Assembly (NCBI GenBank): GCA_017592665.1
Contig: JAGFNW010000021.1
Span: 62,001 to 126,000, forward strand
From: Streptosporangiaceae bacterium NEAU-GS5
Lineage (GTDB): Bacteria; Actinomycetota; Actinomycetes; Streptosporangiales; Streptosporangiaceae
Length of the DNA stretch: 64,000 nucleotides
Direction of reading: 5' to 3'
Shown here: piece after piece, positions 26,486 through 45,345 of the stretch
How positions within the stretch are numbered: position 1 is the stretch's first letter
Layout of the letters: each line of letters starts with the position of its first letter
Program-made: the position numbers and the translations under genes
Notes under the pieces: generated by a model
Seen by the model: only the letters and a program-made list of their open reading frames with translations
What the model was told of the DNA's origin: nothing
Databases searched by the model: none

Positions 26486-27493
26486 GTGACTTCCGGGAAC
26501 TGGCCGTCAGAGATCGCGGAACCGGCCGGAGTGCTTTCTGCGAACATCCGCCGGTCGCGGGCCGTCCCGCTGCCCGCTCCGCACGCCGCGGTCCTGGCCG
26601 ACTACGCCGCCGCGCTCGAGCGCGCTCCGCTCGGCGACTCCACCAAGGCCAAGTACGCCTCCCGGCTGCGCGGCTACCTGGCCTGGCTGGCCGCCCAGGC
26701 CGAGGCCGGCCTTTGGGACGGCGACCCGCTCGCCGACGCGGCCGCGGCCGCGGGAGCGGTGCGCGACTTCCGCCACCACCTCAAGAACGGCCACCGCGCC
26801 GCCAACACCATCGACACCTATCTGTCGGCCATCGACGACTTCTACTCCCGTCGCGGCCTCGGCAAACCCCAGGCCCGCCGCGAGCGGGACGCCCGCCGCC
26901 GCGCCGCCCCCCGTGCCCTGGACCCCGAGGGCGCCCGCCGTTACATCCGCCACGTCCAGCTCACCGCATCCCCGCGCGACAAGGCCATCGCCCTGCTGCC
27001 CTACTTGGCCGGCCTGCGCATCTCCGAAGTCGTCGGCCTCGATGTGGCCGATGTCCGGCTGTCGGCCCACCCAGGCGAGCTGTGCATCCGGGGTCAGGGC
27101 CGCGACGGCGGCAAGATCCGCCTGCTGCCGGTTCACATGGACCTGCGCCAGGCCCTCACCGACTGGCTGGCGACGCGCCCCGGCTGGAAGGGAGCCGGCA
27201 CCCAGGTCGCGGTCTTCCTCAACCACCGAGGCGGCCGCCTGAGCGACCGCGCCGCCCGCGACATCATCACGGGCCTCGGCGACGCCGTCGGCCTGGGCGA
27301 TGACCCCACCGAGCCCTTCAGCCCGCACGTCCTGCGCCACACCTTCGCCACCCAGCTCATCCGCGACGGCAAGGACCCGATCCTGGTCGCCGAACTCCTC
27401 GGCCACGGTTCGCTCGACACCACCCGCCGCTACGCCCTGCCCGCCGAAGCCGACAAGGCAGCCGCCTTGGACGCCCTGATCACCGACCATTAG
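26486..27493 (+). CDS. tyrosine recombinase/integrase, XerC/XerD-like
   Basis: 335 residues with an N-terminal SAM-like core-binding domain (about 35-140) and a C-terminal catalytic domain. The catalytic set is visible: Arg in LAGLRISEVVGL, HxxR in HVLRHTFATQL, His in LLGHGSLDTTRRY, and that final Tyr as nucleophile. No phage or plasmid genes flank it, so it is not part of an obvious prophage. GTG at 26486 has GAGG only 2-3 bases before it, and a TAGACT -10-like box ends 6 bases upstream, so a leaderless start is possible. The adjacent inverted repeat may be its target. Confidence 0.88.
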   Translation: MTSGNWPSEIAEPAGVLSANIRRSRAVPLPAPHAAVLADYAAALERAPLGDSTKAKYASRLRGYLAWLAAQAEAGLWDGDPLADAAAAAGAVRDFRHHLKNGHRAANTIDTYLSAIDDFYSRRGLGKPQARRERDARRRAAPRALDPEGARRYIRHVQLTASPRDKAIALLPYLAGLRISEVVGLDVADVRLSAHPGELCIRGQGRDGGKIRLLPVHMDLRQALTDWLATRPGWKGAGTQVAVFLNHRGGRLSDRAARDIITGLGDAVGLGDDPTEPFSPHVLRHTFATQLIRDGKDPILVAELLGHGSLDTTRRYALPAEADKAAALDALITDH

Positions 27494-32137: not shown

Positions 32138-32279
32138 CGCGCTCTCCTCATCCGGCCGGGGCCGCCTTTCGGCCCCTCGCACCCACACGTCGAACGAGCG
32201 GCCCGAGGATCGACACGGCCCCGGAGAAATCTCGCCGCGCCGCGGCCGAACCCGTCTTACCGGCCCGCAGCGGTCGGTG

Positions 32280-32555
32280 TCACCGGCCCGGAGCGTACCG
32301 CTGGGCGGCGCGCGCCCGGGCCTTCGCGGCCTCGATCTCCCTGTCCCGGGGGGCCGCGGTGGTCACCAGGCGGTCGAGCAGCTCCCGGGTCGCCTCCGCG
32401 ACGGCCCGCACGGCCTCGTCGAAGGCTTCGCGGTTGGCCGCCGACGGGCGGGTCGTACCGCTGATCTTCCGGACGTACTGCAACGCGGCGGCTTCGACCT
32501 CGTCGTTGGTGGCGGGCGGCTCGAAGTTGTGGAGAGGGTGGATGCTTCGGCACAT
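32280..32555 (-). CDS. DUF2277 family protein
   Basis: 91 residues from ATG at 32555 (AAGGTGAAG upstream). Nearly the whole protein fits the family: MCRSIHPLHNFEPPATNDEV, ALQYVRKISGTTRPS, then LLDRLVTTAAPRDREIEAAKARARAA. Function unknown; small, soluble and charged, suggesting a nucleic-acid or protein partner. It is divergent from giant gene A, with only 120 bases between. Confidence 0.88.
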   Translation of the reverse strand: MCRSIHPLHNFEPPATNDEVEAAALQYVRKISGTTRPSAANREAFDEAVRAVAEATRELLDRLVTTAAPRDREIEAAKARARAAQRYAPGR

Positions 32556-32640
32556 AACTTCACCTTGCCACGTGTGCCGCTCGCCGGGCCGGCCGGGCCG
32601 TGCTTTTCCGGCCAGAGCCTCGGCGGGGGACAAATGGCCG

Positions 32641-32669
32641 TTGGTGATCGCCGGATCCGCGTCTACCGT
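32641..32669 (+). promoter_or_regulatory. leaderless promoter of giant gene A
   Basis: TTGGTG at 32641-32646, a 17-base spacer and TACCGT at 32664-32669, then 6 bases to the ATG at 32676. No ribosome-binding site precedes that ATG. The geometry fits a leaderless transcript starting at the A of ATG or next to it. Confidence 0.55.
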
Positions 32670-32675
32670 GCGTTC

Positions 32676-35600
32676 ATGACCACTGCGGGTGGCGCGGAGA
32701 ACATCTTCACTCTGGACGGCCCGACGGCGACCGGCAGCGGCATGCTGCGCGCCGCGGCCACCGCGACCGCACGCAACACCCGGGGGCTGAGCGCCGGATT
32801 CGACCTGCAGGCCCAGTTCGAGGGCGCGGTGGACGCCAAGCTGACCGACGCGGCCAAGGCGTCGTTCCGCGCCAGCGGGTCGGCGTCCGTCACCGCGGAG
32901 GCGGCGGCGTGCTTCCCGCTCGACATCTTCGACTTCGCGGGCGTGGTCGCCTCGCTCAAGGTGCAGGCCGAGGCACGCGCCAGCGTGAAGCTCGCGGTCG
33001 AGTTACAGCCGTTACGCCTGGTCGAGCAGCTGCTCGCGGAACACGTCGACACCGGCTGGCGGCCGTACATCGAGGCTCTGAGCAGGCAGATCAACGCCCG
33101 CGCCGGGTTGCAGGCGAGCGCCGCCGTGTGCGTCAAGGCCGTCTCGGAGGTCAGGGCCGGCGTGCGGCTGTTCCCGAAGAACGGCGAGCCGGCGGGCACG
33201 GTGTTCGTCGTCAACTTCGGCTACGGCTACATCTACGGCTACAGCTGGTCGCTGATCGCCGAGCTGACGTTCTTCGACCCGGCGGCCCTGGTCAAGGATG
33301 TCTTCCAGATCAGCGCGCGGCAGCTGGCCGACGTGTTCGAACTGGAGGGCGCCAAGCAGCCCGAGCCGGCCAGGAGCGCTCTTCTCGAAGGCGCCAAGCT
33401 GGTCGAGATGGCGCTCCCCGCGCTCGCGGACATGCTGTGCACGCTCCTCGCCGACCTGCCCGGCGCGACCAAGCAGGCGCGGCTGACGTCGGCGGTCACC
33501 GCGCTCGGCACCCGGCTCGGCCGGCATCTGCTGGAGACCCTGATCTCGGCGGCGATGGGCGAGCTCCAGCGCCTGCTGGAGCGGCTCGGCCTGCCCCTCG
33601 ACACCGACGTCACCAACCGGCTCCTGGCGCTGTTGCACGGGATCGAGGACGCGATCTTCGCCGACGGCAGCCTGCTCGCGCTGCTGCCCGACGCGGTCGA
33701 CACGGCCGTCGACGCGATCGTCGCGCTGGCTCTGCGCGGCCTGAACGCCGCGGACCGCCAGCTCGTGGAGGATGTCGCGATCGGTGTGTGGGCGGGCATC
33801 AGTCTCCTGTTCGCCGAGCCCACCGCGAGCCGGGGCCCGTCGGCGGCCATGCGGCGGATGCTGGTCGAAGCGGGCGTCGCGCTGACCGGGCCCGGCGACC
33901 TGCCGGCTCGCGCGCTCGGACACTCCGCCGCCCGGCTGCTGCGGCGCGCGGGCGCCGCCGAATGGCTCAGCGACATCACCGGCCTCACCCTCGAGCAGCT
34001 CGTACGGATCCCGCGGGACGGCGTCACGGGCGACGCGCAGACGTTCCTGCGCGAATTCCTGACCGCGGTGGGCGGCGCGCTGTCCAAGGAACTGCTCGAC
34101 CAGGTGCCCGACGACGCCTTCGGACTTCCGCCGCAGGCCGTCCAGTCGGTACGGACCGTCCTCCAGGTGGCGGTGGAGGAGCTGCCCGCCCTGATCGACA
34201 GCGTGGATCAGCCGAAGGTCCTGGAACGCCTGCGCGAGCGGGTGGGCGTCGGCATGTTGCAGGCCATCGGCCCGCCCCTGGTCGCCTACCTGGAAGCCCT
34301 CGCCCGCGAGGGCTTCCAGCGGGCCGTGCCGGCCGTACAGCAACTGGCCGACGAGGCGGCGCACCTCGGCGACCACATTCCCGCCTTCCCGCGCGGCGGC
34401 CCGCTCGACCGCTTCACGGCGGCGCTGGAGGACCTCGGACGGGAGTCGATCAACGTCACGCTGGGCCTGCCGACGTCGACCATGCTGGGCCATCTGGCCT
34501 CGAAGCTCGGCCGGTGGCGCGACGAACGGCTGCCGATCGAGCTCGGCCTGCTGCGCCGGACGCTCTGCATGGAAGGAGAGACGAGCGACAGCCTGCTCAG
34601 CCGGCTGGACAGCTCCGACACCTCCGTGGTGCTCGCGTCGCTCGGCGAACTGGCCAAGCACCACCTCGACCAGATCAGGTCGATCACCCAGTTCGTCCTC
34701 GAGGACAGCGCGGATCTGCTGGTCCGGCTGACCGTGCTGCCGTTCGAGCAGGCCGCGCGGCTGTTCGCGGCCAGTGTGAAGGCCGCCTTCGAGCTCACGG
34801 CCGCGCTGATCGCCGAGATGGCGCGGATCGCCGCGGACCTGGACGCCCGGACCCGGCAGCTGGAGACCGACGCGGCCATGCTGACGGCCCGGGTCGCGAT
34901 CCAGTGCGGCGCCCTCGCCGCGGAGGCCGCCGCGCTGACCGATCACCTCGTCGATCTGATCATCACGAATCTGGTGGGCAACGACCCGGTCGCGCGGGAA
35001 GCGGCGAAGATCGCGTTCTTCCTGCTGACCGGTGACGTCACCGAGGTCGTCTCGCGCGCGCTGGGCGACATCGCCATGGTCCTCCAGGTGGCGGGCCAGG
35101 CGATCGCGGCGGCGGCCCGGCAGGGCACCCTGGGCAGCCATGGCGCCAAGGACCTGCTCGAATCCGCGGTCCGGGCGACGGCGTCGGAGAACGTCGGCAT
35201 CCCCATCACGATCCTGATCCCCATCGTGCCGCCCTTCATCTTCGCCACGGTCACGCTGATGACCGTGGAGGTGAACGCGGCCTGGCTCGGCGGGATCCTG
35301 TGGAACGGGCTGCTCGGCGCGACCGGCGCCGGGCCGATCATCGCGGCGATCGGCGACACCGCCACCTCGCTCCAGGCCACGAACGCGGCGCTGGACGCCG
35401 TCCGGGCCGCGGGCACCCCGGCCGAGGTCCGGCAGCGCGCCGCCGACCTGCAGAGACGGGTCGACACGGCCTACCGGCCAGACCCCATCACGATCACTTT
35501 CGAGGCGGGTTCACCCCAGTCGGTGACGACGGGGACGCGCGAGGCCGTCGTCCGGGGCAGGGTCGCGGGCATCGATCGGACGTACGTGGCCCCGCTCAAG

Positions 35601-37433
35601 GTGGAGGACGGCGCCGACGGCCTGGTGATCCCGGCCCGGGTGCGGTTCACCTGCCAGGGGACGCCGGTGCCGCCCGAGATGGTGGCCTGGACCGACCTCG
35701 GCCCGCGTGAGCTCGAATTCAGCTTCCGTATCTCTGTCCGGCCCGGCGAATCGGCCGATCCGGTCGTGGTGGTCCAGCCGGGCGTGTGCGTGGTGTCGTG
35801 CCTGGCTGCGGCGGGCGCGTGGGCCGGCACCTCCGACGAGGTCGGCGCGTCCAAGTCCGTGACGTTCCTGCTGGTTCCCGACCGGGACCAGGTCTACGGC
35901 CAGGCGGCGATCAGCGCCTGGCCGTCGGCGGCCGGCGCCCTCGGTCTCGCCTACGCCACCGAGAGCGGGCGCGTGGCCTGGCTGGCCCGGCGGGACGGGC
36001 ACTGGTCGGCGGAAGACGCGCCGGTTCCTGCGCCGCGCTCGGGTTCCGGGATCGCCGGCTGGATGTCCTCTGACGGCGACCGGCTCCTCTACGTCGCCGG
36101 CAGCGGCGGCGTGCGGGTCGCGCACCGTGCCGCCGACGGATCGTGGGGCGGTTCCGTCGTCCACGGCGCGCCCGCCCGCATCGGCCGTCCCCAGCGGACG
36201 GCGACGGCCTCGGGCGGTGATCGCGTGGCCTACATCGACGAGGCCGGACGGCTGTACGTCGCCGTACGCGAAGCAACCCGTTGGAAGGTCGCGGACGTCA
36301 CCGCGCTCGCCGGGCTGCCGCCCGCCGCCCCGGCCGCCGACCTGACCCAGTGGTCGTCCCCGTACGGCTTCGCGGCCGACGTCATCGCCGAAGGCAACCT
36401 GCTCGCCAACCCGCTATTCGCCGCCGGTCCGCGCTCCGCCGGCGAACCCGCGGCCGGGTGGAGCCTTTGGGCGGGCGGCCGCACCGAGCAGGTGCTGGTC
36501 ACCGACCTGCGCCCATCGACCCTCGGCCTGCCCGAGTCGGCCCGCATGATCCATGTCGGCACCAGCGTCGAGAACGTAGGACTGGTGCAAGTCTTCGGCG
36601 CCGAGCACGCCGGCCCGGCCGAGGTGGACGCGGTCGCCTGGGTGCGCGTCCTGCGCGGCGAGGTCGGCATGGGCACCGGCGACGGCGGCAGCACGGGATT
36701 CGACGCCAGGACCGACGTCAAGGACCGCTGGATCCGTCTGTCGGCCCGCAACGGCGTCGCTCCCGCCAACGAGTTCATCGTGTACGCCGCCGGCCGGGGC
36801 GGCGCGGAGTTCCTGGTGGCGGGGGCCTCCGTCCGGGCGGTCGGCGCGCCGCTCCCCGAAACGACCTGGAACCTGGTCTTTCCTTCGGCGGACGGGCGGC
36901 TCTGCCTGGTCGCCTACCTGCCGGTCCCCGGCGTATGGCGGTTCACCGATCTGATGGCCGGCGGCCGGGCGCCGCGCTGGAAGGACGGCGGCGATCTCGC
37001 GGGCTGGCTCGACGCGGCCGGCGACCCGCACGTCGCCTACTGGGCCGACGACGGCGACCATTATGAGCTGGCCGGCTCCGCCGCCACGTCCGAGTGGCGG
37101 GCGCGCCGGTTCGGGCCACCGGGCCTCGGCCGGCGTGCCACCCGCACCGCGGCGGCGACCGCGGTGTCGGGTGACGAACGGCTGGTCGTCTGCGCCGCTC
37201 CCGACGACTCCCTCCACCTGCTGTCCTCGCGCGGGGGCGCGGGCCCGTGGACGGTGACGCCGCTGACCTCGCTGGCCCCCGCCACCAGGGCGGCCGTCGC
37301 GATCACCGGGACGACGGTGGCGATGGTCGGCGCCGACCGCCAGATCATCGTGGCCTCCCGGAGCGCCGCGGGCCGCTGGACGACCTCCGATCTGAGCGCC
37401 GAGATCGCGGCGCCGCGCGCAGGCAGGTGGTGA
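32676..37433 (+). CDS. giant protein A (1585 residues): helical body, hydrophobic segment, propeller with jelly-roll-like insert
   Basis: I do not recognise this protein as a whole. Residues 30-190 alternate polar and hydrophobic positions, as in amphipathic beta-hairpins, with Ala/Gly-rich runs. About 200-830 are predominantly amphipathic helices. About 839-895 is strongly hydrophobic (ITILIPIVPPFIFATVTLM and a Gly-rich second part). About 940-1060 looks beta-rich. From about 1071 to the end, seven repeats of a G-x-hydrophobic strand plus aromatic R-W turn suggest a seven-bladed propeller. Between repeats three and four (about 1244-1390) sits a domain starting NLLANPLFAAG with GWSLW, like a carbohydrate-binding jelly roll. 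No Sec signal or lipobox. It is coupled to gene B with a 2-base gap. The frame is open back to 31770, but that part is antisense to the DGPF gene. Confidence 0.8.
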   Translation: MTTAGGAENIFTLDGPTATGSGMLRAAATATARNTRGLSAGFDLQAQFEGAVDAKLTDAAKASFRASGSASVTAEAAACFPLDIFDFAGVVASLKVQAEARASVKLAVELQPLRLVEQLLAEHVDTGWRPYIEALSRQINARAGLQASAAVCVKAVSEVRAGVRLFPKNGEPAGTVFVVNFGYGYIYGYSWSLIAELTFFDPAALVKDVFQISARQLADVFELEGAKQPEPARSALLEGAKLVEMALPALADMLCTLLADLPGATKQARLTSAVTALGTRLGRHLLETLISAAMGELQRLLERLGLPLDTDVTNRLLALLHGIEDAIFADGSLLALLPDAVDTAVDAIVALALRGLNAADRQLVEDVAIGVWAGISLLFAEPTASRGPSAAMRRMLVEAGVALTGPGDLPARALGHSAARLLRRAGAAEWLSDITGLTLEQLVRIPRDGVTGDAQTFLREFLTAVGGALSKELLDQVPDDAFGLPPQAVQSVRTVLQVAVEELPALIDSVDQPKVLERLRERVGVGMLQAIGPPLVAYLEALAREGFQRAVPAVQQLADEAAHLGDHIPAFPRGGPLDRFTAALEDLGRESINVTLGLPTSTMLGHLASKLGRWRDERLPIELGLLRRTLCMEGETSDSLLSRLDSSDTSVVLASLGELAKHHLDQIRSITQFVLEDSADLLVRLTVLPFEQAARLFAASVKAAFELTAALIAEMARIAADLDARTRQLETDAAMLTARVAIQCGALAAEAAALTDHLVDLIITNLVGNDPVAREAAKIAFFLLTGDVTEVVSRALGDIAMVLQVAGQAIAAAARQGTLGSHGAKDLLESAVRATASENVGIPITILIPIVPPFIFATVTLMTVEVNAAWLGGILWNGLLGATGAGPIIAAIGDTATSLQATNAALDAVRAAGTPAEVRQRAADLQRRVDTAYRPDPITITFEAGSPQSVTTGTREAVVRGRVAGIDRTYVAPLKVEDGADGLVIPARVRFTCQGTPVPPEMVAWTDLGPRELEFSFRISVRPGESADPVVVVQPGVCVVSCLAAAGAWAGTSDEVGASKSVTFLLVPDRDQVYGQAAISAWPSAAGALGLAYATESGRVAWLARRDGHWSAEDAPVPAPRSGSGIAGWMSSDGDRLLYVAGSGGVRVAHRAADGSWGGSVVHGAPARIGRPQRTATASGGDRVAYIDEAGRLYVAVREATRWKVADVTALAGLPPAAPAADLTQWSSPYGFAADVIAEGNLLANPLFAAGPRSAGEPAAGWSLWAGGRTEQVLVTDLRPSTLGLPESARMIHVGTSVENVGLVQVFGAEHAGPAEVDAVAWVRVLRGEVGMGTGDGGSTGFDARTDVKDRWIRLSARNGVAPANEFIVYAAGRGGAEFLVAGASVRAVGAPLPETTWNLVFPSADGRLCLVAYLPVPGVWRFTDLMAGGRAPRWKDGGDLAGWLDAAGDPHVAYWADDGDHYELAGSAATSEWRARRFGPPGLGRRATRTAAATAVSGDERLVVCAAPDDSLHLLSSRGGAGPWTVTPLTSLAPATRAAVAITGTTVAMVGADRQIIVASRSAAGRWTTSDLSAEIAAPRAGRW

Positions 37434-37435
37434 CC

Positions 37436-40400
37436 ATGGCGATCGATCTGGCGGGCCTTCTGCAGGGCGTTCTCAAGGAGCTGTTCGGCGTCGTCACGAA
37501 GCTGAGCCCCCCCGTCCTCGTGCACCCCGTGCTGGGCCGCGTCTATCCGCGGCTGGACGGCTTCTGGCCAAGGGGCTCCTCGCAGCCCGCCCCGCCTCGC
37601 CTGCTGACGCCGCGCACGCTGCGCGGATTCCTGGTGGGCGCCGGCGCGGACAGCCAGGCACTCGGCAAGCTCGCCCTGCTCGGGCTCCCGGTAGACCTGC
37701 TCCAGGAGACCTGGTCGGACGACGGCACGAAGATCGGGGCCGCCGCCCTGCAGATCGTCGCCGACGCCCAGCCCAACACACTCATCCAGACGACGCTGAC
37801 CACCGCGGCCGTCGGGGCGCTCTGGCGGCTCAACCCGTTCGAGTCCGGCCCCCCGGCTGACGCGGCCGCCGTTTACGCCGACCTCATGGCGGCGGCGCTG
37901 ACCGGGCACGCCGACGACCCCGCCTTCCGGACCGCGGCGGCCGGGCGCCCCGTGGAGGAAGTGATCGAAGAGGGACGTGCCTACCTGGCGGGCCTGGCCA
38001 CCGACTGGCTCACCGCCGTCCAGGCACTGGTCGTCCTGTCGGCGGCGCAGCAGGCCGAGCCCGCGGGCCGCGACTTCCCCGCCGAGCTGGACGCCATCGT
38101 CGCCGCCTACAACGCGACGTCGGCGCCCGATTCGCCGTTCCTCGAGTACGTCGCCGGCGTGCTTCTCGGCGGGCACCCGGCGACCACCGCCATGCCGGAC
38201 GACCCCGGTGACGACCACTTCGCCGACGTGCTTCGCGCCGCGATCCTGCACACCGCCGCGGGCGGCCTCGTACGCGAGGACGGCGACGGCACGGCCGCCG
38301 CGGCGGCGGCGACTCCCGCGCCCGTCGGTAACGCCATCCTGGACAGCGCGTTCGAGCTCGCCGACCAGCTCACCACGTACGCGCAGGACGAGGCCGGGCG
38401 GTGGGCCGACGACCAGGCCGACTGCAGCAGCTTCGTCCAGCGGGCGCTGTTCGCCGCCGGCACCACCGCGTTCGACCCAGGGCCCGACCACACGAACGCC
38501 TTGACCAGCCACGCCCTCGCCGGCCGCGACGACCTGTTCGACACCGTGCCCCGCTCGGGCGCGCGCCCGGGAGACGTGCTCGTGCAGGGCGCGCTGGTGA
38601 TGGTCGACGGCACGATGACCTGGAAGGGGCACTGCGGCCTGTTCCTCCAGCCCGCCGCGGACGATCCCGACGTGCTCGAGGGGGCGTCGATGGACGCCGT
38701 CGGGCCCGTGACGGAGGGTCGGTGGGGGGTGGGCGGGTCCTATGCGTACGGGGAGAATCTGCTTGTCCGGCGGCTCAAAGAGGTCCGCAAGGGCGGCCCG
38801 GCGCTGCCGTTCGCCGATTTCTCGGCCGCCGATCCCGCGGTGACCGCGAGCAACGACGCCAAGCGGTTCGCCGGGTTCAGTCTGGCGAAGGTGCACTGGC
38901 AGGACGCCGACAGCGACGCCGACGCCCGACCGGCCGTCGAGGCGACCGCGCTGGGGATCCACTACACGGTCCGGCAGAATCACGGCCCCGCGGTGCTCGC
39001 CTTGAGCCCTGGCGCGATGGCCTGCGCCCCTCCCGGCGACGGGACCCAGCGCGTGCGCGCCTATCTGGCCGAAGACGACGTCGCCCGGGTGCGCCGGACA
39101 CTGAGCGTGGACAACGTCCGCTTCGTCTGGGAGCTCTCGGCCGACCAGGGCGCCCGCTTCGCGGCCTCGATGCGCACCCACCATGGCACGGGCCACCTCC
39201 GCCCGGTGCTGCTCAACGGCCAGGACGAGCCGTACGAGCGGATGCTCACCGTCGGCCCCGTCACGGCCGACCTGGACCGGGTCGAACAGATCGACGTCTG
39301 GGCGCGCGGCGAGGGACCGGTCCTGTTCCGCCCCGCCGAGGGCGTCCGGCCCGAGCAGGTGGAGCTGCTGCGGCTGCGCGCGGGCGAGAAGATCACGCTG
39401 TACGCCGAGGTCATGACCCACGCCAACGACGTCGCCGCGCAGTCGTGGTATCGGGTCAACGCCGGTTCGATCCTCGACGCGCTACGCCGGGACGGGACGC
39501 TGGAAGAGGAGTACGACCTGCTCACCGAGGTTTTCCGGGACGGCGGCGTGGCCAGCGGGGGACCGGCCGGCTCACGCGGCGAGCTCGTCGCGCTGTGGGG
39601 CGGCTCGCGCGACACGCTGATCCTGCAGCCGGCCGGAGTCGTGCCCGCCGCGCTGTTCAGCTTCGCCACCTGCGACGTGATCCAGATCTTCGCCCCGGCG
39701 CTCGCCGTCCCGCCGGACCGCCCGATCGGCGTGCGGACGTCCCTGCCCACGATCCCGCGCGCCGCGCTTGCCCAGCTGTGGGCCCGCTACGCCGTCACCG
39801 ACCGCTTCACCGATCCCGGGGCCGGCTACGACTTCCCGGCGACCGACTACGCCACCGAGATCACCAGCGCCGATCCAGGGCAGGTCCGCGGCCTTGCCTT
39901 CCACGATGAGGTGGCCCGGGTGATCACCTATGGCCCGGCGGGGGAGAAGACGGGCGCCTACCTGCACGGCGGGACGTCCCGGAAGATCATCCCGCACTCC
40001 GACCCCGCCTCCCGCCCCGACCACCCGCAGTGGCAGGTCAAGCGCGTGCCCCAGCTACTGCGCCTCTATCCGCTCCGCTACACCCTGAAGGTGGGTGACG
40101 CGCCCGAATTCGCCATCACGCAGGACGATGTGGACTGCGCTCGCCAGGAATACGTGTTCCACATGGACTTCACCGACGGCTACTTCCAGACCTATGCCGG
40201 GATATTCAAACCGGCGGACCTGCCACGGCTCGTCTTCCCCACCACCGATCCCGGCAACCCGCACGGCCTGGAACTGGCCGGTGGCCGTCCAGTGCTCCCC
40301 GCACTCGGCGCCAACAAGGTCATCGTCGTTCCGACCCGGAGCGAGATCCGGCCGCTCACGCTCGCGCCGGAGACGCGGGGGGTCAGGCACAGCACCGGCT

Positions 40401-41230
40401 ACCACTACACCCGGCTGACCGCCGCCTCCGACGACCTGGTGGAGACGGCACGCGTGGCGTCCGAACGCTATGCGCTGGGTGCCCTGGACATCGTGCACTC
40501 GGTCTTGGGGAATACGCCCCTGCCCGTGACCACGCTGCCCGACTACGCCGCCCGGGCCGTCGTGCGCATCACGCGGCTGATCAGCGCGCCACCGCCGGCG
40601 CTCGGCTCCATCGACGGGGTCCTGTACGAAGCCCTGATGCGCGGCGGCAACCCGCTCGCCACCTTCGCCGACCTCGCCGATCCCATGCATCCGCGGCTGT
40701 GGCCGTACACGCTGCAGATCTCGTCCGGGTGGCGGTCGCCCGAGCACAACGAGACCGTCAGCAAGGTGCCGACCAGCAACCACCAGCTGGGCGTGGCCAT
40801 GGACATCCAGCCGAAGAAGGATCGCGGGCAGCGCAACCCGCTCGCGCTGCTCTGCCTGCACCTGTCGGCGCAGGACCACCTCAGAGCGCATCGGGTGCGG
40901 GAGTGCCTGCTGGAGTTCTTCGCCGACGAGTACGTCGTCGGCGCTTTCCCGCGTGACCTGGTCGACATGACCTTCCGCGAGCAGGTCACGCCGCACGGCG
41001 TCGAATATGTCCTGCACTCCAGCGCGGGCGACCAGCCGATGTCGGTCCCCGACCAGGTCCACGAGGGCGACCAACTGGCCGGGAGCCGCGGGCTGCACCC
41101 TCTGCTCATCAAGACGTTCCGCACGGCCTGGGACGCCACCCACCTGCCCTGGCCCGAGCCGACCTATCTCGACGTGTACGTCTTCGCCCTCGCCAGGGGC
41201 TCTCACGTCCACCACACCTGGGTGCTGTGA
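37436..41230 (+). CDS. giant protein B (1264 residues) with NlpC/P60-like and M15-like peptidase centres
   Basis: The N-terminal 300 residues are helical and unassigned. About 310-430 resembles an NlpC/P60 domain: the Cys in DQADCSSFVQRALF (Cys330), a PGDVLV turn and the His in KGHCGLFL (His399). About 480-720 is beta-rich. The C-terminus has SSGWRSPEHN then SNHQLGVAMDIQP, the M15 (VanY/YcbK-like) zinc motif SxHxxGxAxD with His1116 and Asp1123; a His cluster near 1257-1260 could give the third ligand. Both centres belong to families that cut peptidoglycan peptides. No signal peptide is present. ATG at 37436 has AGGTGG upstream. Together with A it is probably one secreted or injected machine; mechanism unknown. 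Confidence 0.75.
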   Translation: MAIDLAGLLQGVLKELFGVVTKLSPPVLVHPVLGRVYPRLDGFWPRGSSQPAPPRLLTPRTLRGFLVGAGADSQALGKLALLGLPVDLLQETWSDDGTKIGAAALQIVADAQPNTLIQTTLTTAAVGALWRLNPFESGPPADAAAVYADLMAAALTGHADDPAFRTAAAGRPVEEVIEEGRAYLAGLATDWLTAVQALVVLSAAQQAEPAGRDFPAELDAIVAAYNATSAPDSPFLEYVAGVLLGGHPATTAMPDDPGDDHFADVLRAAILHTAAGGLVREDGDGTAAAAAATPAPVGNAILDSAFELADQLTTYAQDEAGRWADDQADCSSFVQRALFAAGTTAFDPGPDHTNALTSHALAGRDDLFDTVPRSGARPGDVLVQGALVMVDGTMTWKGHCGLFLQPAADDPDVLEGASMDAVGPVTEGRWGVGGSYAYGENLLVRRLKEVRKGGPALPFADFSAADPAVTASNDAKRFAGFSLAKVHWQDADSDADARPAVEATALGIHYTVRQNHGPAVLALSPGAMACAPPGDGTQRVRAYLAEDDVARVRRTLSVDNVRFVWELSADQGARFAASMRTHHGTGHLRPVLLNGQDEPYERMLTVGPVTADLDRVEQIDVWARGEGPVLFRPAEGVRPEQVELLRLRAGEKITLYAEVMTHANDVAAQSWYRVNAGSILDALRRDGTLEEEYDLLTEVFRDGGVASGGPAGSRGELVALWGGSRDTLILQPAGVVPAALFSFATCDVIQIFAPALAVPPDRPIGVRTSLPTIPRAALAQLWARYAVTDRFTDPGAGYDFPATDYATEITSADPGQVRGLAFHDEVARVITYGPAGEKTGAYLHGGTSRKIIPHSDPASRPDHPQWQVKRVPQLLRLYPLRYTLKVGDAPEFAITQDDVDCARQEYVFHMDFTDGYFQTYAGIFKPADLPRLVFPTTDPGNPHGLELAGGRPVLPALGANKVIVVPTRSEIRPLTLAPETRGVRHSTGYHYTRLTAASDDLVETARVASERYALGALDIVHSVLGNTPLPVTTLPDYAARAVVRITRLISAPPPALGSIDGVLYEALMRGGNPLATFADLADPMHPRLWPYTLQISSGWRSPEHNETVSKVPTSNHQLGVAMDIQPKKDRGQRNPLALLCLHLSAQDHLRAHRVRECLLEFFADEYVVGAFPRDLVDMTFREQVTPHGVEYVLHSSAGDQPMSVPDQVHEGDQLAGSRGLHPLLIKTFRTAWDATHLPWPEPTYLDVYVFALARGSHVHHTWVL

Positions 41231-41243
41231 AAATCGCCGGTGA

Positions 41244-41276
41244 AAGATAGGGACCCGGCGCCCGGAAGATAGGGAC
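41244..41276. repeat. direct repeat AAGATAGGGAC, two copies 22 bases apart
   Basis: Copies at 41244-41254 and 41266-41276, two helical turns apart, in the 121-base gap before the M6-like protease gene. Two in-phase direct repeats suggest a regulator site; an insertion-sequence end remnant is the alternative. No other feature in the gap. Confidence 0.5.
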
Positions 41277-41351
41277 ATTGACCGATCCGCCCCGACCTTT
41301 ACCCGCCCTACGGTCAGGCCTGATCTGGTGGTGGCTGATAGGAGATTCGGG

Positions 41352-44033
41352 TTGAGCCGGTGGGTGGTGCGTCTGCGACGGTTCTGGATCGGATTTGTCG
41401 CATCTGTGGCGATTGTGCTGTTTCTGGGGGCCGGTGCGGCCAACGCGATCCCGGTCGGCGGTGGTGGCGACGATCCGCCGCCCGACGACTGCGCCTCATT
41501 CATATGGGGAGACCTGACGGTCTCGCCGGCCAAGGTCACGGCCGGGCAGAGCGTGACGCTGAGCTGGAATGTCAGCCAGAAATCGGGTTGTCCGACGTGG
41601 CGGCACATCAACGGGCTCGGCTTCGGCGGCGAATCGGTGGCCCTGACGGGCAGCCGCACGCTCGTCCTGAACACCGTGGGCCCGACGACCTGGTCACTGA
41701 CCGTCTACGGGGTCCTCGGCACGGTCTACACGCTCGACACCGCCACCGCGACGGCGCAGTCGCCGAGCGGTCCGCCGTCGGTGTCGTCGCAGGCCGCCCT
41801 GTCGGTGGTCACCGCTCAGGAGGCGGCGCAGGTGGGCAACAAGCCCGGTTTCTGGGTCAATGTCCCTGGTCTGAGCACCGCTGTATCGGCCAAGGCCGGG
41901 TCCACGCTCGCGGCGACGCTGTCGGCCGAGATCTACACGCAGAACACCGTGTGGTTCCGCGTGCTCGTCGATGGCGCTGTGAGCGCGCCGGGCGATGTGG
42001 CCTACAAGTTCGACGGCGCGGACTTCGACGGCACCCGCTCGTTCACGTTCGGCCGCGAGAACCTTCCCGCCGGTCGGCACATCGTGCAGGTCCAGTGGTT
42101 CACCACCACCGGCACGTCGGCCCATGTCGGCAAGCGGACGCTGACCGTCAACACCGATGCCGGCGGCGCGGCCGCCGGTCGCCTGTTCCATGTGGCGGCC
42201 GAGTCGGACTGGCTCACCAAGACCTCCCAGACCTGGGAAGGCGTGCCGGATCTGGTGCGCAGCGTGAGCTTGTCCGACACGCGCGACCTGAAGATCACCT
42301 TCTCGGGTCAGACGATCCCCGGCAGCGGCGCGTTCTACGCCCGCGCGGTGGTCGACGGGGCGCCGGGCGAGGACGTGCTGTTCGGCGCCGCCGGTGTTCC
42401 CGGCGGCGCGCGGTCGTATGTGTTCGTGCGCAAGGGCGTCGGCGCCGGCACGCACACCGTGTCGATTCAGTGGTACTCCGACGGCGGCGGCATCCTGCTC
42501 GGCGACCGGGCGATGACGGTCTTCGCGACCCCGGCCACCGCGATCGATGGCGGCCTGACGACGTCGGTGTACGAGGGGGGACCCGACACGATCACCGGTG
42601 GCACGTTCACCACGCTCGGCAACATCGGCGGGTCGTTCACCACCTATTCGGGCGGCACGAACGCCGAGCTGACCGTCGGCCTGGACGTGCGGTCCACGGG
42701 GCGGGCGCTGCTGCGGGTGCTGTTCGACGGTGCGCCCCCCGGCTCCTCCGACGTCGTGCTGTCCGACTCGGTCGGCGGGTTCCGCGCGCAGAGCTACAGC
42801 TTCACCGTCAAGAACATAAAACCTGGCCCGCACAACGTTCAGGTCCAGATCCAAGCCCCCTCGGGCACCGTGTACGTGGGCGACCGTACGCTCGCGGCGA
42901 CGTTCACCCGGCGACCCGGCACCGACTTCGCCCAGCCGTACCGCACCCTGGCTCCGCGGATGGGGCCGTCCGTGCCGGTCATCGCCATCTGCTTCGATCC
43001 CGGGCGGCCCGGTCAGGCGGCGCCGAGCCTCAGCTCCCTGCGGAACATGCATGAGGGGCTCGACGGCGGCCGCAGCGTCAAGGGCTGGTTCCAGGAGAAC
43101 ACCGCGGGTCAGCTCCCGTTCGCCACGCCGACGTACATCGGCTGCGCCGACGGCAACTGGCTGACCCCGCCGGCCGGACGCACCGGCACCTGGTACTGGG
43201 ACACCGGCAACTTCCCGATGATGTGGCAGGACGCGCTGATCGCCGCCGATCCGTACGTCGACTTCCTGGCGCTGGACCACAACGGCGACCACGTCATCAC
43301 CGGCGACGAGGCGGTGATCGAGATCATCCGTCCCCAGGACGGCCCTTACGGCACGCACGACTACATGACGGCCACCCTGGACGGCGTCTCCATGAGCGTC
43401 GGATTGCTCGACCTGTATCTGTCCTCGCTCGGGGGCGACGCCACACGACAGTGGAACATCGGCGTCACCTCGCACGAAGCGTCGCACCTCCTGCTGGGGG
43501 CCGCCGACATGTACTGGGACATGCCGACCCGCGCATGGTTCTTCAGCATCATGGACAACCACTTGCTGGGCACCCATCTCGATGCGTTCCACAAGCTCAA
43601 GAGCGGCTTCGTGACACCGAACGTCGTGGAGATGAACACGTGGACGACCTCGACGGTCTCCCTCAACGCGGTGGAGACCAGCCAGGAGATCACGATCCTC
43701 TATGACCCGGCCCGCGGGGACAGGGAGTACTTCATCCTGGAGAACCGGTGGCCCGGCACCGGCTCCGCCCTCAACTACGACGTCGGTCTGGGTTCCGGCG
43801 GCGTGGCGGTCTGGCACATCGTCGAGGACACCAGCCTCCAGGATCAATATCCACCCGCCAATGGCATCGTCAGCGGCGACTGGGGGCGCATGGGCATACG
43901 GTTGATCAAGGTCCTCAACGTGAACGGCAGCAGCCTGGGCCTCACCTGGGCCGACCACACGTCGGCGGGGATCAGCGTCACCGCGAAGACGGACCCCCAG
44001 GCCTCCATTCCCGTCGAGATCGCAAAAATCTGA
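41352..44033 (+). CDS. secreted M6-like (immune inhibitor A-like) metalloprotease with tandem beta-sandwich repeats
   Basis: 893 residues from TTG at 41352 with GGAG 7 bases upstream. A Sec signal peptide ends near ANA-IP (about residue 32). About 50-130 is a beta domain; three related modules of about 115-125 residues follow, each closing on a V/L-G-(K/D)-R-(T/A)-(L/M) turn. The C-terminal catalytic domain has an EF-hand-like Ca2+ loop DHNGDHVITGDEA (about 642-654) and the zinc motif HEASH (708-712) followed by LLLGAADMYW, as in M6 peptidases. It would be exported and degrade extracellular protein. It follows giant gene B in the same direction but has its own upstream region. Confidence 0.85.
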   Translation: MSRWVVRLRRFWIGFVASVAIVLFLGAGAANAIPVGGGGDDPPPDDCASFIWGDLTVSPAKVTAGQSVTLSWNVSQKSGCPTWRHINGLGFGGESVALTGSRTLVLNTVGPTTWSLTVYGVLGTVYTLDTATATAQSPSGPPSVSSQAALSVVTAQEAAQVGNKPGFWVNVPGLSTAVSAKAGSTLAATLSAEIYTQNTVWFRVLVDGAVSAPGDVAYKFDGADFDGTRSFTFGRENLPAGRHIVQVQWFTTTGTSAHVGKRTLTVNTDAGGAAAGRLFHVAAESDWLTKTSQTWEGVPDLVRSVSLSDTRDLKITFSGQTIPGSGAFYARAVVDGAPGEDVLFGAAGVPGGARSYVFVRKGVGAGTHTVSIQWYSDGGGILLGDRAMTVFATPATAIDGGLTTSVYEGGPDTITGGTFTTLGNIGGSFTTYSGGTNAELTVGLDVRSTGRALLRVLFDGAPPGSSDVVLSDSVGGFRAQSYSFTVKNIKPGPHNVQVQIQAPSGTVYVGDRTLAATFTRRPGTDFAQPYRTLAPRMGPSVPVIAICFDPGRPGQAAPSLSSLRNMHEGLDGGRSVKGWFQENTAGQLPFATPTYIGCADGNWLTPPAGRTGTWYWDTGNFPMMWQDALIAADPYVDFLALDHNGDHVITGDEAVIEIIRPQDGPYGTHDYMTATLDGVSMSVGLLDLYLSSLGGDATRQWNIGVTSHEASHLLLGAADMYWDMPTRAWFFSIMDNHLLGTHLDAFHKLKSGFVTPNVVEMNTWTTSTVSLNAVETSQEITILYDPARGDREYFILENRWPGTGSALNYDVGLGSGGVAVWHIVEDTSLQDQYPPANGIVSGDWGRMGIRLIKVLNVNGSSLGLTWADHTSAGISVTAKTDPQASIPVEIAKI

Positions 44034-44065
44034 CACCCCCGGCGCAAGGCGCGGTGCAGGAGATT

Positions 44066-44085
44066 TCCCTATTTACGAGTAGGGA
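44066..44085. promoter_or_regulatory. inverted repeat TCCCTA-N8-TAGGGA before the YeiH/sulfonate operon
   Basis: Six-base perfect arms around an 8-base spacer, immediately followed by TTGACG (44086-44091), a possible -35. Located 50 bases before the micropeptide start. Candidate operator for a sulfur-responsive regulator. Confidence 0.45.
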
Positions 44086-44134
44086 TTGACGGGTTTATGC
44101 TCCGGGAGGAGTCCACCCCCCAAGGAGCAACGTC

Positions 44135-44254
44135 ATGGCTGTACGCGAGGAGCGGCGTGAACGCACGCCCGTGCTGGACTGGGTAGCGGTCGGGGTCGCC
44201 GCCATCATCGTGCTGATCGCCGTGCTCGGCTGGCTTCCGGCGGTGACCTGGTGA
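44135..44254 (+). CDS. 39-residue single-pass membrane peptide coupled to the YeiH gene
   Basis: ATG at 44135 follows AAGGAG by 7 bases. The peptide begins with the charged segment [14 protein letters not shown], then one hydrophobic span ([18 protein letters not shown]) and ends PAVTW. Its TGA overlaps the GTG of the YeiH gene in GTGA, so it is a genuine, coupled cistron. Probably a small subunit or folding partner of the transporter; no family is recognised. Confidence 0.75.
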
Positions 44255-45345
44255 CCGCCACCGAGGCCGCCGCGCCGGCCGGTCGCCTCGCTCTCGGAGA
44301 CCTCGCACGGAAGGCGGCCGGACTGCTGCCGGGCCTGATCCTGCTGGCCGTCGTCGGATACGCCGGCAAGCTCGCGCAGGTCGGCGTGAAGAACCTGGCC
44401 ACGGCCAACGACTGGCATCTGCCCGACATCGAGTACGTGTTGTGGGCCATCGTCTTCGGCCTGATCATCACCAACACGATCGGGCTGCACCGGGTCTTCG
44501 CGCCGGGCGTGGCCACGTACGAGTTCTGGCTGAAGCTGGGCATCGTGCTGCTCGGCGCGCGGTTCCTGCTCGGCGACGTGGCCAAGCTGGGCGGGGTCAG
44601 CCTCGCCCTGGTCGCGATCGAGCTGGTGGCCGCCATCGGCATCGTGGTGCTGATCGGGCGCTGGTTCGGGCTCGGGCCCAAGCTGATCTCCCTGCTGGCC
44701 ATCGGCTCGTCCATCTGCGGTGTGTCGGCCATCATCGCGGGCAAGGGCGCCATCGACGCCGACGACGAGGACGCCTCGTTCGCGATCGCCGCGATTCTCG
44801 CCCTGGGCGCCTTCGGGCTGTTCGCCTATCCGGCCATCGGCCACCTGCTCGGCATGACGGCGCACGAGTTCGGCCTGTGGGCGGGTCTGGCGGTCGACAA
44901 CACGGCGGAGGCCACCGCCGCCGGCGCCATCTATGGCGACGAGGCCGGGAAGATCGCGGTTCTGGCCAAGTCGGCGCGCAACGCCACCATCGGGTTCGTC
45001 GTGCTGGGCTTCGCCATCTACTGGGCCGCGCGTGGCCAGGCCACGGCCATCGGCAACCGGGCCCAGTTCCTGTGGGCCAAGTTCCCCAAGTTCGTGCTCG
45101 GCTTCCTCGCGGTGTCCGCGCTGGCCACGGCCGGGATCATCGCCAAGGCGGACGCGGTGTCGCTCGGCAACCTGTCCCGCTGGGCGTTCCTGCTCACCTT
45201 CGCCGGAGTCGGGCTCCGCACCGATCTTCGAGCCCTGGGCCGGCTCGGCTGGCGCCCGTTCGTCGTCGGCGCCTTCGCCGAACTGGCGGTGACCGTCGTG
45301 ACCCTGGGTCTCGTCCTCGCCGCCTCCGCCTGGATAGGCCTCTAG
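44251..45345 (+). CDS. YeiH family putative sulfate exporter (UPF0324)
   Basis: 364 residues with about ten spans and the family features [38 protein letters not shown] and [22 protein letters not shown]. Members are annotated as sulfate or sulfonate-linked exporters from context, not from direct transport data in most cases. It starts at GTG 44251 inside the micropeptide stop. The sulfonate-type ABC importer genes follow, which supports a role in removing sulfite or sulfate produced from imported sulfonates. Confidence 0.85.

Follow-up and report, generated by a model that had tools for sequence, protein, structure and literature searches.

Two giant adjacent genes of a Streptosporangiaceae genome encode an orphan protein pair with a probable M15 peptidase centre and a propeller-like repeat array

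What might two giant neighbouring genes of no recognised full-length family do for an actinomycete, and how would their products reach a target? We address this question for genes A and B, which lie in a 64,000-nucleotide stretch of DNA (the window) from Streptosporangiaceae bacterium NEAU-GS5 (contig C42, 62001-126000; source genome of 9.96 Mb in 127 contigs; GC 70%). The locus directly presents two coding genes 2 bases apart, an M15 peptidase motif in B and a repeat array in A. Gene A (32676..37433, + strand, ATG start) encodes 1585 amino acids (aa), and its stop codon (37431-37433) is followed 2 bases later by the ATG at 37436 that opens gene B (37436..41230, + strand, 1264 aa), as an earlier sequence-only reading of this DNA had described. 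Both are real coding genes. The per-codon score is 0.378 for A and 0.339-0.340 for B, the latter being partly circular because the window genes used to train the codon model include B but not A, and GC at third codon positions is 93% and 92%. By comparison, three long antisense open reading frames tested, which overlap A/B, scored 0.072, 0.029, and -0.095, and two long sense out-of-frame ones scored -0.778 and -0.726. Across the 41 genes in the window that reach 200 codons, the mean score is 0.362 (standard deviation 0.091); A and B are typical of them, and their codon use therefore carries no sign of recent foreign origin. An alternative in-frame ATG at 32634 would give an A of 1599 aa. A promoter-like TTGGTG-17 bases-TACCGT arrangement, picked out by eye 6 bases before the ATG at 32676 (32641-32678), would fit a leaderless transcript; a consensus scan of 32200-44300 returned 0 promoter-like sites and did not report this candidate.

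The reading that we favor, tentatively and with more doubt than confidence, is that A and B form a lineage-restricted, non-Sec wall-degrading complex: B would cut peptidoglycan, with A aiming or anchoring B. The two proteins would be co-translated as parts of one complex. B would be the enzyme, with a C-terminal M15-type zinc peptidase and a mid-protein NlpC/P60-like cysteine peptidase, and the two centers might cut different bonds in peptidoglycan stem peptides. A would be the targeting partner, with a C-terminal seven-bladed propeller, perhaps of the PLL/CV39L lectin kind, that binds a surface glycan and a helical, hydrophobic body that contacts the membrane or holds B. Lacking a visible Sec signal, the pair would act after lysis or via a non-Sec route. 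We infer the glycan binding, the A-B complex, its target, and its export route from these features. The sequence-only reading of a cell-envelope-acting machine is supported in part. If the reading is true, this would be a wall-degrading machine without a Sec signal whose enzyme and aiming parts are divided between two giant coupled proteins, and the direct question would be how such proteins exit the cell. At present, A and B are an orphan pair with two recognizable enzyme centers and one repeat array, and most of their length is unassigned.

B is probably an M15 peptidase. The endolysin profile phrog_894, which has no cut-off, matched B residues 1093-1130 (40712..40825, + strand) significantly (E 2.8e-7), and Peptidase_M15_3 (PF08291) matched within residues 960-1264 (E 1.6e-4, 22.2 bits versus a cut-off of 23.2). 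The matched stretch contains an H-x6-D motif formed by His1116 and Asp1123, which we take to be M15 zinc ligands. A second stretch, SHVHHTW (B residues 1256-1262; 41201..41221, + strand), was noticed by eye outside the hidden Markov model match, and its histidines are candidates for the second zinc site of M15 enzymes, which carry a third zinc-binding His and a catalytic acid closer to the C-terminus. B resembles the M15 family in the H-x6-D region but differs in that the match spans about 38 residues, sits 1 bit under the Pfam cut-off near the end of 1264 aa, and is accompanied by a second metal site that is a candidate only. With whole B as the query, Pfam returned M15_3 (E 9.6e-4), Amidase_5 (E 0.026), and M15_4 (E 0.14), all under their cut-offs, and matches across Pfam, NCBIfam, PHROG, and PADLOC were partial only. 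A tblastn search with B 960-1264 at E values up to 10 matched 160 phage records weakly and in no case over 80% of the query; among the eight matches listed the best E value was 0.2, and five of the eight were annotated as endolysin or peptidase. The same search of plasmids returned seven records (E 0.4-10), with no endolysin named.

A second enzyme center in B is possible. Residues 325-406 (38408..38653, + strand) hold Cys330 in DCSSF and His399 in GHCGLF, and the excised region matched Amidase_5 (PF05382; E 0.0015, 18.9 bits versus a cut-off of 21) and NLPC_P60 (PF00877; E 0.025, 15.0 versus 23 bits), with both matches spanning the two residues. This placement of a cysteine and a histidine is the likeness to the NlpC/P60 and Amidase_5 families, whereas B differs from them in falling below both cut-offs, in lacking an identified third catalytic residue, and in its long flanking extensions. 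The sequence-only reading had proposed both centers in B; the M15-like one found moderate support, the NlpC/P60-like one kept its cysteine and histidine and its weak matches, and neither reached a Pfam cut-off. Searches of the rest of the protein (B 1-310 and about 420-1050) gave no significant match, and one hydropathy stretch above 1.6 was found at residues 728-758. Two rows from the PDB sequence searches were taken as chance: platelet glycoprotein Ib with whole B and its C-terminus (E 0.013-0.1) and a photosystem I subunit with B 295-480 (E 0.049-0.31).

Sub-threshold matches of this kind raise the alternative that A and B are multi-domain orphans with degenerate or coincidental peptidase motifs and some other function, e.g., adhesion or protein processing. 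We regard this as possible though doubtful. The Pfam matches below threshold, the large unassigned stretches, and the lack of conservation against which residues could be tested all speak for it, but catalytic-type residues occur at matching places in both centers and the phrog_894 match is significant.

The proposed targeting role of A draws on its C-terminus, which consists of seven repeats of 41-52 residues, arranged 3+4 around a 168-aa insert and centered on an invariant Trp (segment borders hand-cut). Repeats 1-3 occupy A residues 1087-1227 (35934..36356, + strand), as defined by self-alignment and the repeat test, and repeats 4-7 occupy residues 1396-1585 (36861..37430, + strand), as defined by self-alignment, profile, and the repeat test. 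Alignment of A 1091-1220 with A 1400-1542 scored 88, compared with a shuffle mean of 40.6 (standard deviation 7.0, maximum 63), a score that 0 of 200 shuffles reached (z 6.7). In leave-one-out profiles, six of the seven repeats scored above at least 98.6% of their own shuffles; the shuffles reaching repeats 1 to 7 numbered 4/500, 7/500, 2/500, 1/489, 179/500, 0/500, and 0/500. When the seven-repeat profile was searched against PDB at E values up to 10, it returned two sequences, DCAF8 (E 0.29) and CV39L lectin (E 0.36), the latter with four weak matches in register with the profile. We take DCAF8 to be a WD40 propeller and CV39L to be a propeller lectin of the PLL family, and the propeller class is plausible because both sequences returned would then be propellers. 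The array is consistent with a seven-bladed propeller, an identity that is weakly indicated. A resembles PLL-family lectins in its putative array of seven repeats around an invariant Trp and in having CV39L among the two sequences returned, but differs in that the CV39L match is not significant and in its 168-aa insert and fused 1086-aa body.

The remainder of A yielded less. Whole A had no match in Pfam, NCBIfam, PHROG, or PADLOC at E values up to 1, which together with the partial matches of B agrees with the initial view that neither protein belongs to a known family over its full length. Searched in pieces, A gave weak rows only, namely DUF6437 (E 0.015), FG-GAP_3 (E 1.2, in the repeat region), and three unknown PHROGs (E 0.11-0.17), and searches of residues 1-1086 gave no significant match. 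Against PDB sequences, the pieces reached a best E value of 0.25, which is not significant, with residues 241-1079 not among the pieces run alone. The insert (residues 1228-1395; 36357..36860, + strand; borders from the repeat positions) had no Pfam match and a best PDB E value of 0.25, and it is jelly-roll-like by eye only. Hydropathy stretches above 1.6 occur at residues 76-94, 333-351, 839-866, and 1027-1050 (2.04), of which 839-866 (35190..35273, + strand; Kyte-Doolittle 2.15 over 19 residues) is the strongest hydrophobic segment of A. A strong hydrophobic segment had been pointed out from the sequence alone, as had amphipathic strands, a long helical body, and a jelly-roll-like insert; these last three remain impressions, with no significant Pfam or PDB match. 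Internal comparisons also gave no signal: the score between the N-terminal halves of A was reached by 17 of 200 shuffles, that between the A body and the B N-terminus by 24 of 50, and that between A 931-1090 and B 471-960 by 50 of 50.

Relatives of either protein would allow the pairing and the candidate residues to be judged by conservation. B was found in 1 of 296 phylum genomes and 1 of 297 same-family genomes, its own genome each time, and A in 1 of 100 relatives and 1 of 356 phylum genomes, where the sole convincing match was again its own genome. These genome sets overlap and contained no other genome of the source genus, and scoring in each genome was limited to the top 2 to 6 candidates, so that a divergent relative could be missed. 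Within the sets searched, A and B are an orphan pair, so far in a single genome. Tblastn searches at E values up to 0.01 matched five of 394 class genomes with B 620-1264 and five of 250 family genomes with A 1080-1585, in each case the own genome and four short partial matches. The short matches (51-88 residues, best E 5.1e-4, for B; 60-100 residues, best E 2.5e-4, for A) were not accepted as relatives, and stop codons interrupt four of the eight. A and B were then compared locally with the fetched loci, giving E values that apply to one short locus each: locus L004 reached 8e-7 against B 1062-1130 but did not keep the histidine of H-x6-D, and L009 (1.7e-5), presumably a beta-trefoil protein, was rejected as a relative. 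We likewise set aside L010 (3.7e-5, two stops), L007 (2.4e-4, stops), L012 (3.3e-4, 49 residues), and L011 (0.005); the re-run of L006 gave no match.

Several results weigh against a wall-degrading complex of A and B. No homologue of either protein was found in the genome, plasmid, phage, and viral searches, so that no conservation stands behind any residue or behind the A-B pairing. No M15 or NlpC family exceeded its Pfam cut-off in B. Repeat 5 failed the leave-one-out test, given that 179 of 500 shuffles reached it, and two C-terminal stretches of A, each about 95-100 residues long, aligned to one another with a z of only 2.6 (4/200 shuffles). Neither PDB propeller match (DCAF8, CV39L) is significant, and no PDB match came back with a two-row profile built from three repeats. 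The earlier proposal of a propeller in A gained support from the repeat array (0/200 shuffles for repeats 1-3 against the region of repeats 4-7) but not from repeat 5 or from a significant match to CV39L. Single-sequence AlphaFold models were unusable and were not used: A 1080-1585 had a mean predicted local distance difference test (pLDDT) score of 38.9, with the last repeats as strands at about 50-74 and the remainder below 50 almost throughout, and B 295-480 had a mean of 39.7, exceeding 50 only in a helix formed by roughly its first 40 residues. Finally, no Sec signal or N-terminal anchor is visible in A or B by hydropathy alone; this agrees with what had first been noted, and it leaves the proposed wall-acting pair with no visible export signal.

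The absent export signal and the absent relatives also bear on the possibility that the pair targets the wall of the cell that makes it, in developmental lysis or in remodeling of the hyphal or spore envelope. The peptidoglycan-hydrolase-like B, the ordinary chromosomal setting, and the typical codon usage of both genes would suit such a role. We nevertheless consider it unlikely, given that no export signal is visible and that no other genome searched yielded the pair (B in 1 of 297 same-family genomes, its own), which is unexpected for a core developmental role.

A is long, looks helical, and carries hydrophobic segments, and the gene immediately after it holds two lysin-like centers; the two could also be the remnant of a phage tail module, in which A would be tape-measure-like and B a tail-associated lysin. 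The best family of B is a phage endolysin PHROG, and a tyrosine recombinase (phage-type integrase; PF00589, E 8.9e-30) lies at 26531-27493, about 5 kb upstream of A. The surroundings and the searches argue otherwise, and we judge this origin highly unlikely. Gene finding gave 56 genes for the window, and Pfam was applied to 22 of them (including all those called in 21838-48890) as well as to the DUF2277 gene described below and two by-eye stretches, which had no match. Among the genes so examined, Pfam found no phage tail, capsid, or extracellular contractile injection system (eCIS) family; PHROGs were not run on these neighbors. Neither whole A (E up to 1) nor whole B (E up to 0.01) matched any of 50,697 phage or 72,556 plasmid records, and tblastn with A 1080-1585 against plasmids at E values up to 10 found none. 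Pattern scans of genome and viral contigs, which used exact 8-residue words and so reach close relatives only, confirmed no relative. The propeller-like array at the C-terminus of A is a further point against a tail module. So is the outcome of the search for attachment-site repeats, which gave no convincing one within the limits set: five two-copy families near the recombinase (23-33 bases, 76-87% identity) were taken as chance.

We also considered that A and B could be cargo or accessory proteins of an eCIS encoded in their own genome and delivered by that route. The genome carries two such contractile loci, one on contig C84 at about 99-119 kb (L015, L016) and one on contig C37 at about 62-78 kb (L017), which may begin before the fetched stretch. 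With Pfam applied to ten chosen genes per locus, the C84 locus showed sheath, tube, baseplate V and GPD, PAAR, gp25, baseplate J, Pvc16_N, AAA, and eCIS_core families, and the C37 locus showed sheath, tube, baseplate V, gp25, baseplate J, Pvc16_N, AAA, and eCIS_core. At C84, a 637-aa deaminase-domain protein (Pput2613-deam, E 1.9e-24) between the eCIS_core and sheath genes is a candidate cargo in its own right. A and B lie on C42, outside both loci and apart from the sheath genes on C84 and C37, and blastp at E 0.05 matched neither protein to any gene called within the stretches fetched for these loci. The eCIS_core family, which we take to be DUF4157, was found neither in A or B, whole or in pieces, nor in the called genes of 21838-48890.

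Published accounts cut both ways. As described in PMC8213781 and PMC11297309, eCIS cargo often carries DUF4157 or lies adjacent to it, and its N-terminal loading signals are hydrophilic (PMC11297309). The mean hydropathy of the first 20 residues is 1.44 for B, which is fairly hydrophobic, and 0.06 for A, which is neutral. PMC8213781 also describes EAT10, a predicted peptidoglycan hydrolase, among the eCIS-associated toxins and lists EAT1, EAT10, and EAT12 without DUF4157; the missing domain thus does not exclude cargo status for A and B. They resemble these toxins in having no visible Sec signal and an eCIS in the genome, but differ in lacking eCIS_core, in lying outside the eCIS loci, and in the hydrophobic N-terminus of B. 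A contractile route is thus possible but unsupported, with release by lysis or by some other non-Sec route no less open. Delivery as eCIS cargo is in our estimate distinctly improbable. The sequence-only reading had named contractile release as one option; the two eCIS loci make that route possible in this organism, but A and B lack eCIS_core and sit on another contig. We would give similarly little credence to the boldest reading, in which A and B would together make up a novel weapon of two proteins, antibacterial or otherwise acting on the envelope, so far in a single genome, with a split propeller in A that recognizes a surface sugar, an A that enters or holds the membrane, and a giant coupled B acting as a two-enzyme peptidoglycan cutter, the pair being released free of Sec by lysis or contractile loading.

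The genes flanking the pair have their own affinities. The gene upstream of A and divergent from it, at about 32280-32555 on the minus strand, belongs to DUF2277 (Pfam E 1.8e-37). Downstream of B, gene C (41328-44033) encodes an M6-type protease (TIGR03296, E 8e-14, below its cut-off; HEASH at residue 716) with an N-terminus that appears signal-peptide-like by our reading, and it is followed by a Cons_hypoth698 protein and then transporter genes. A search with C at E values up to 1e-6 matched 7 of 297 same-family genomes, its own and six others; in these six the similarity was confined to the protease region, at 29-31% identity. Its own genome holds C and two long M6-protease-like paralogues (72% and 71% identity; contigs C23 and C39) at unrelated places (L028 14736-17363; L030 1661-4387). 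No convincing relative of A or B was found by blastp among the genes called in the fetched 28.0 and 28.5 kb around the C paralogues; the sole row at E values up to 0.05, A 910-991 against a 305-aa gene (E 0.021), was taken as chance. Because the paralogues stand without neighboring A or B relatives, gene C probably lies outside the A-B unit as a separate cassette, and we set it aside as a third member. One paralogue locus has, a few genes away, a 4250-codon open frame that we read as nonribosomal peptide synthetase-like. Between B and C, a direct repeat that was not found in eight other genome stretches checked, including those before the C paralogues, occurs twice as AGATAGGGAC, at 41245 and 41267 (41245-41276), with starts 22 bases apart.

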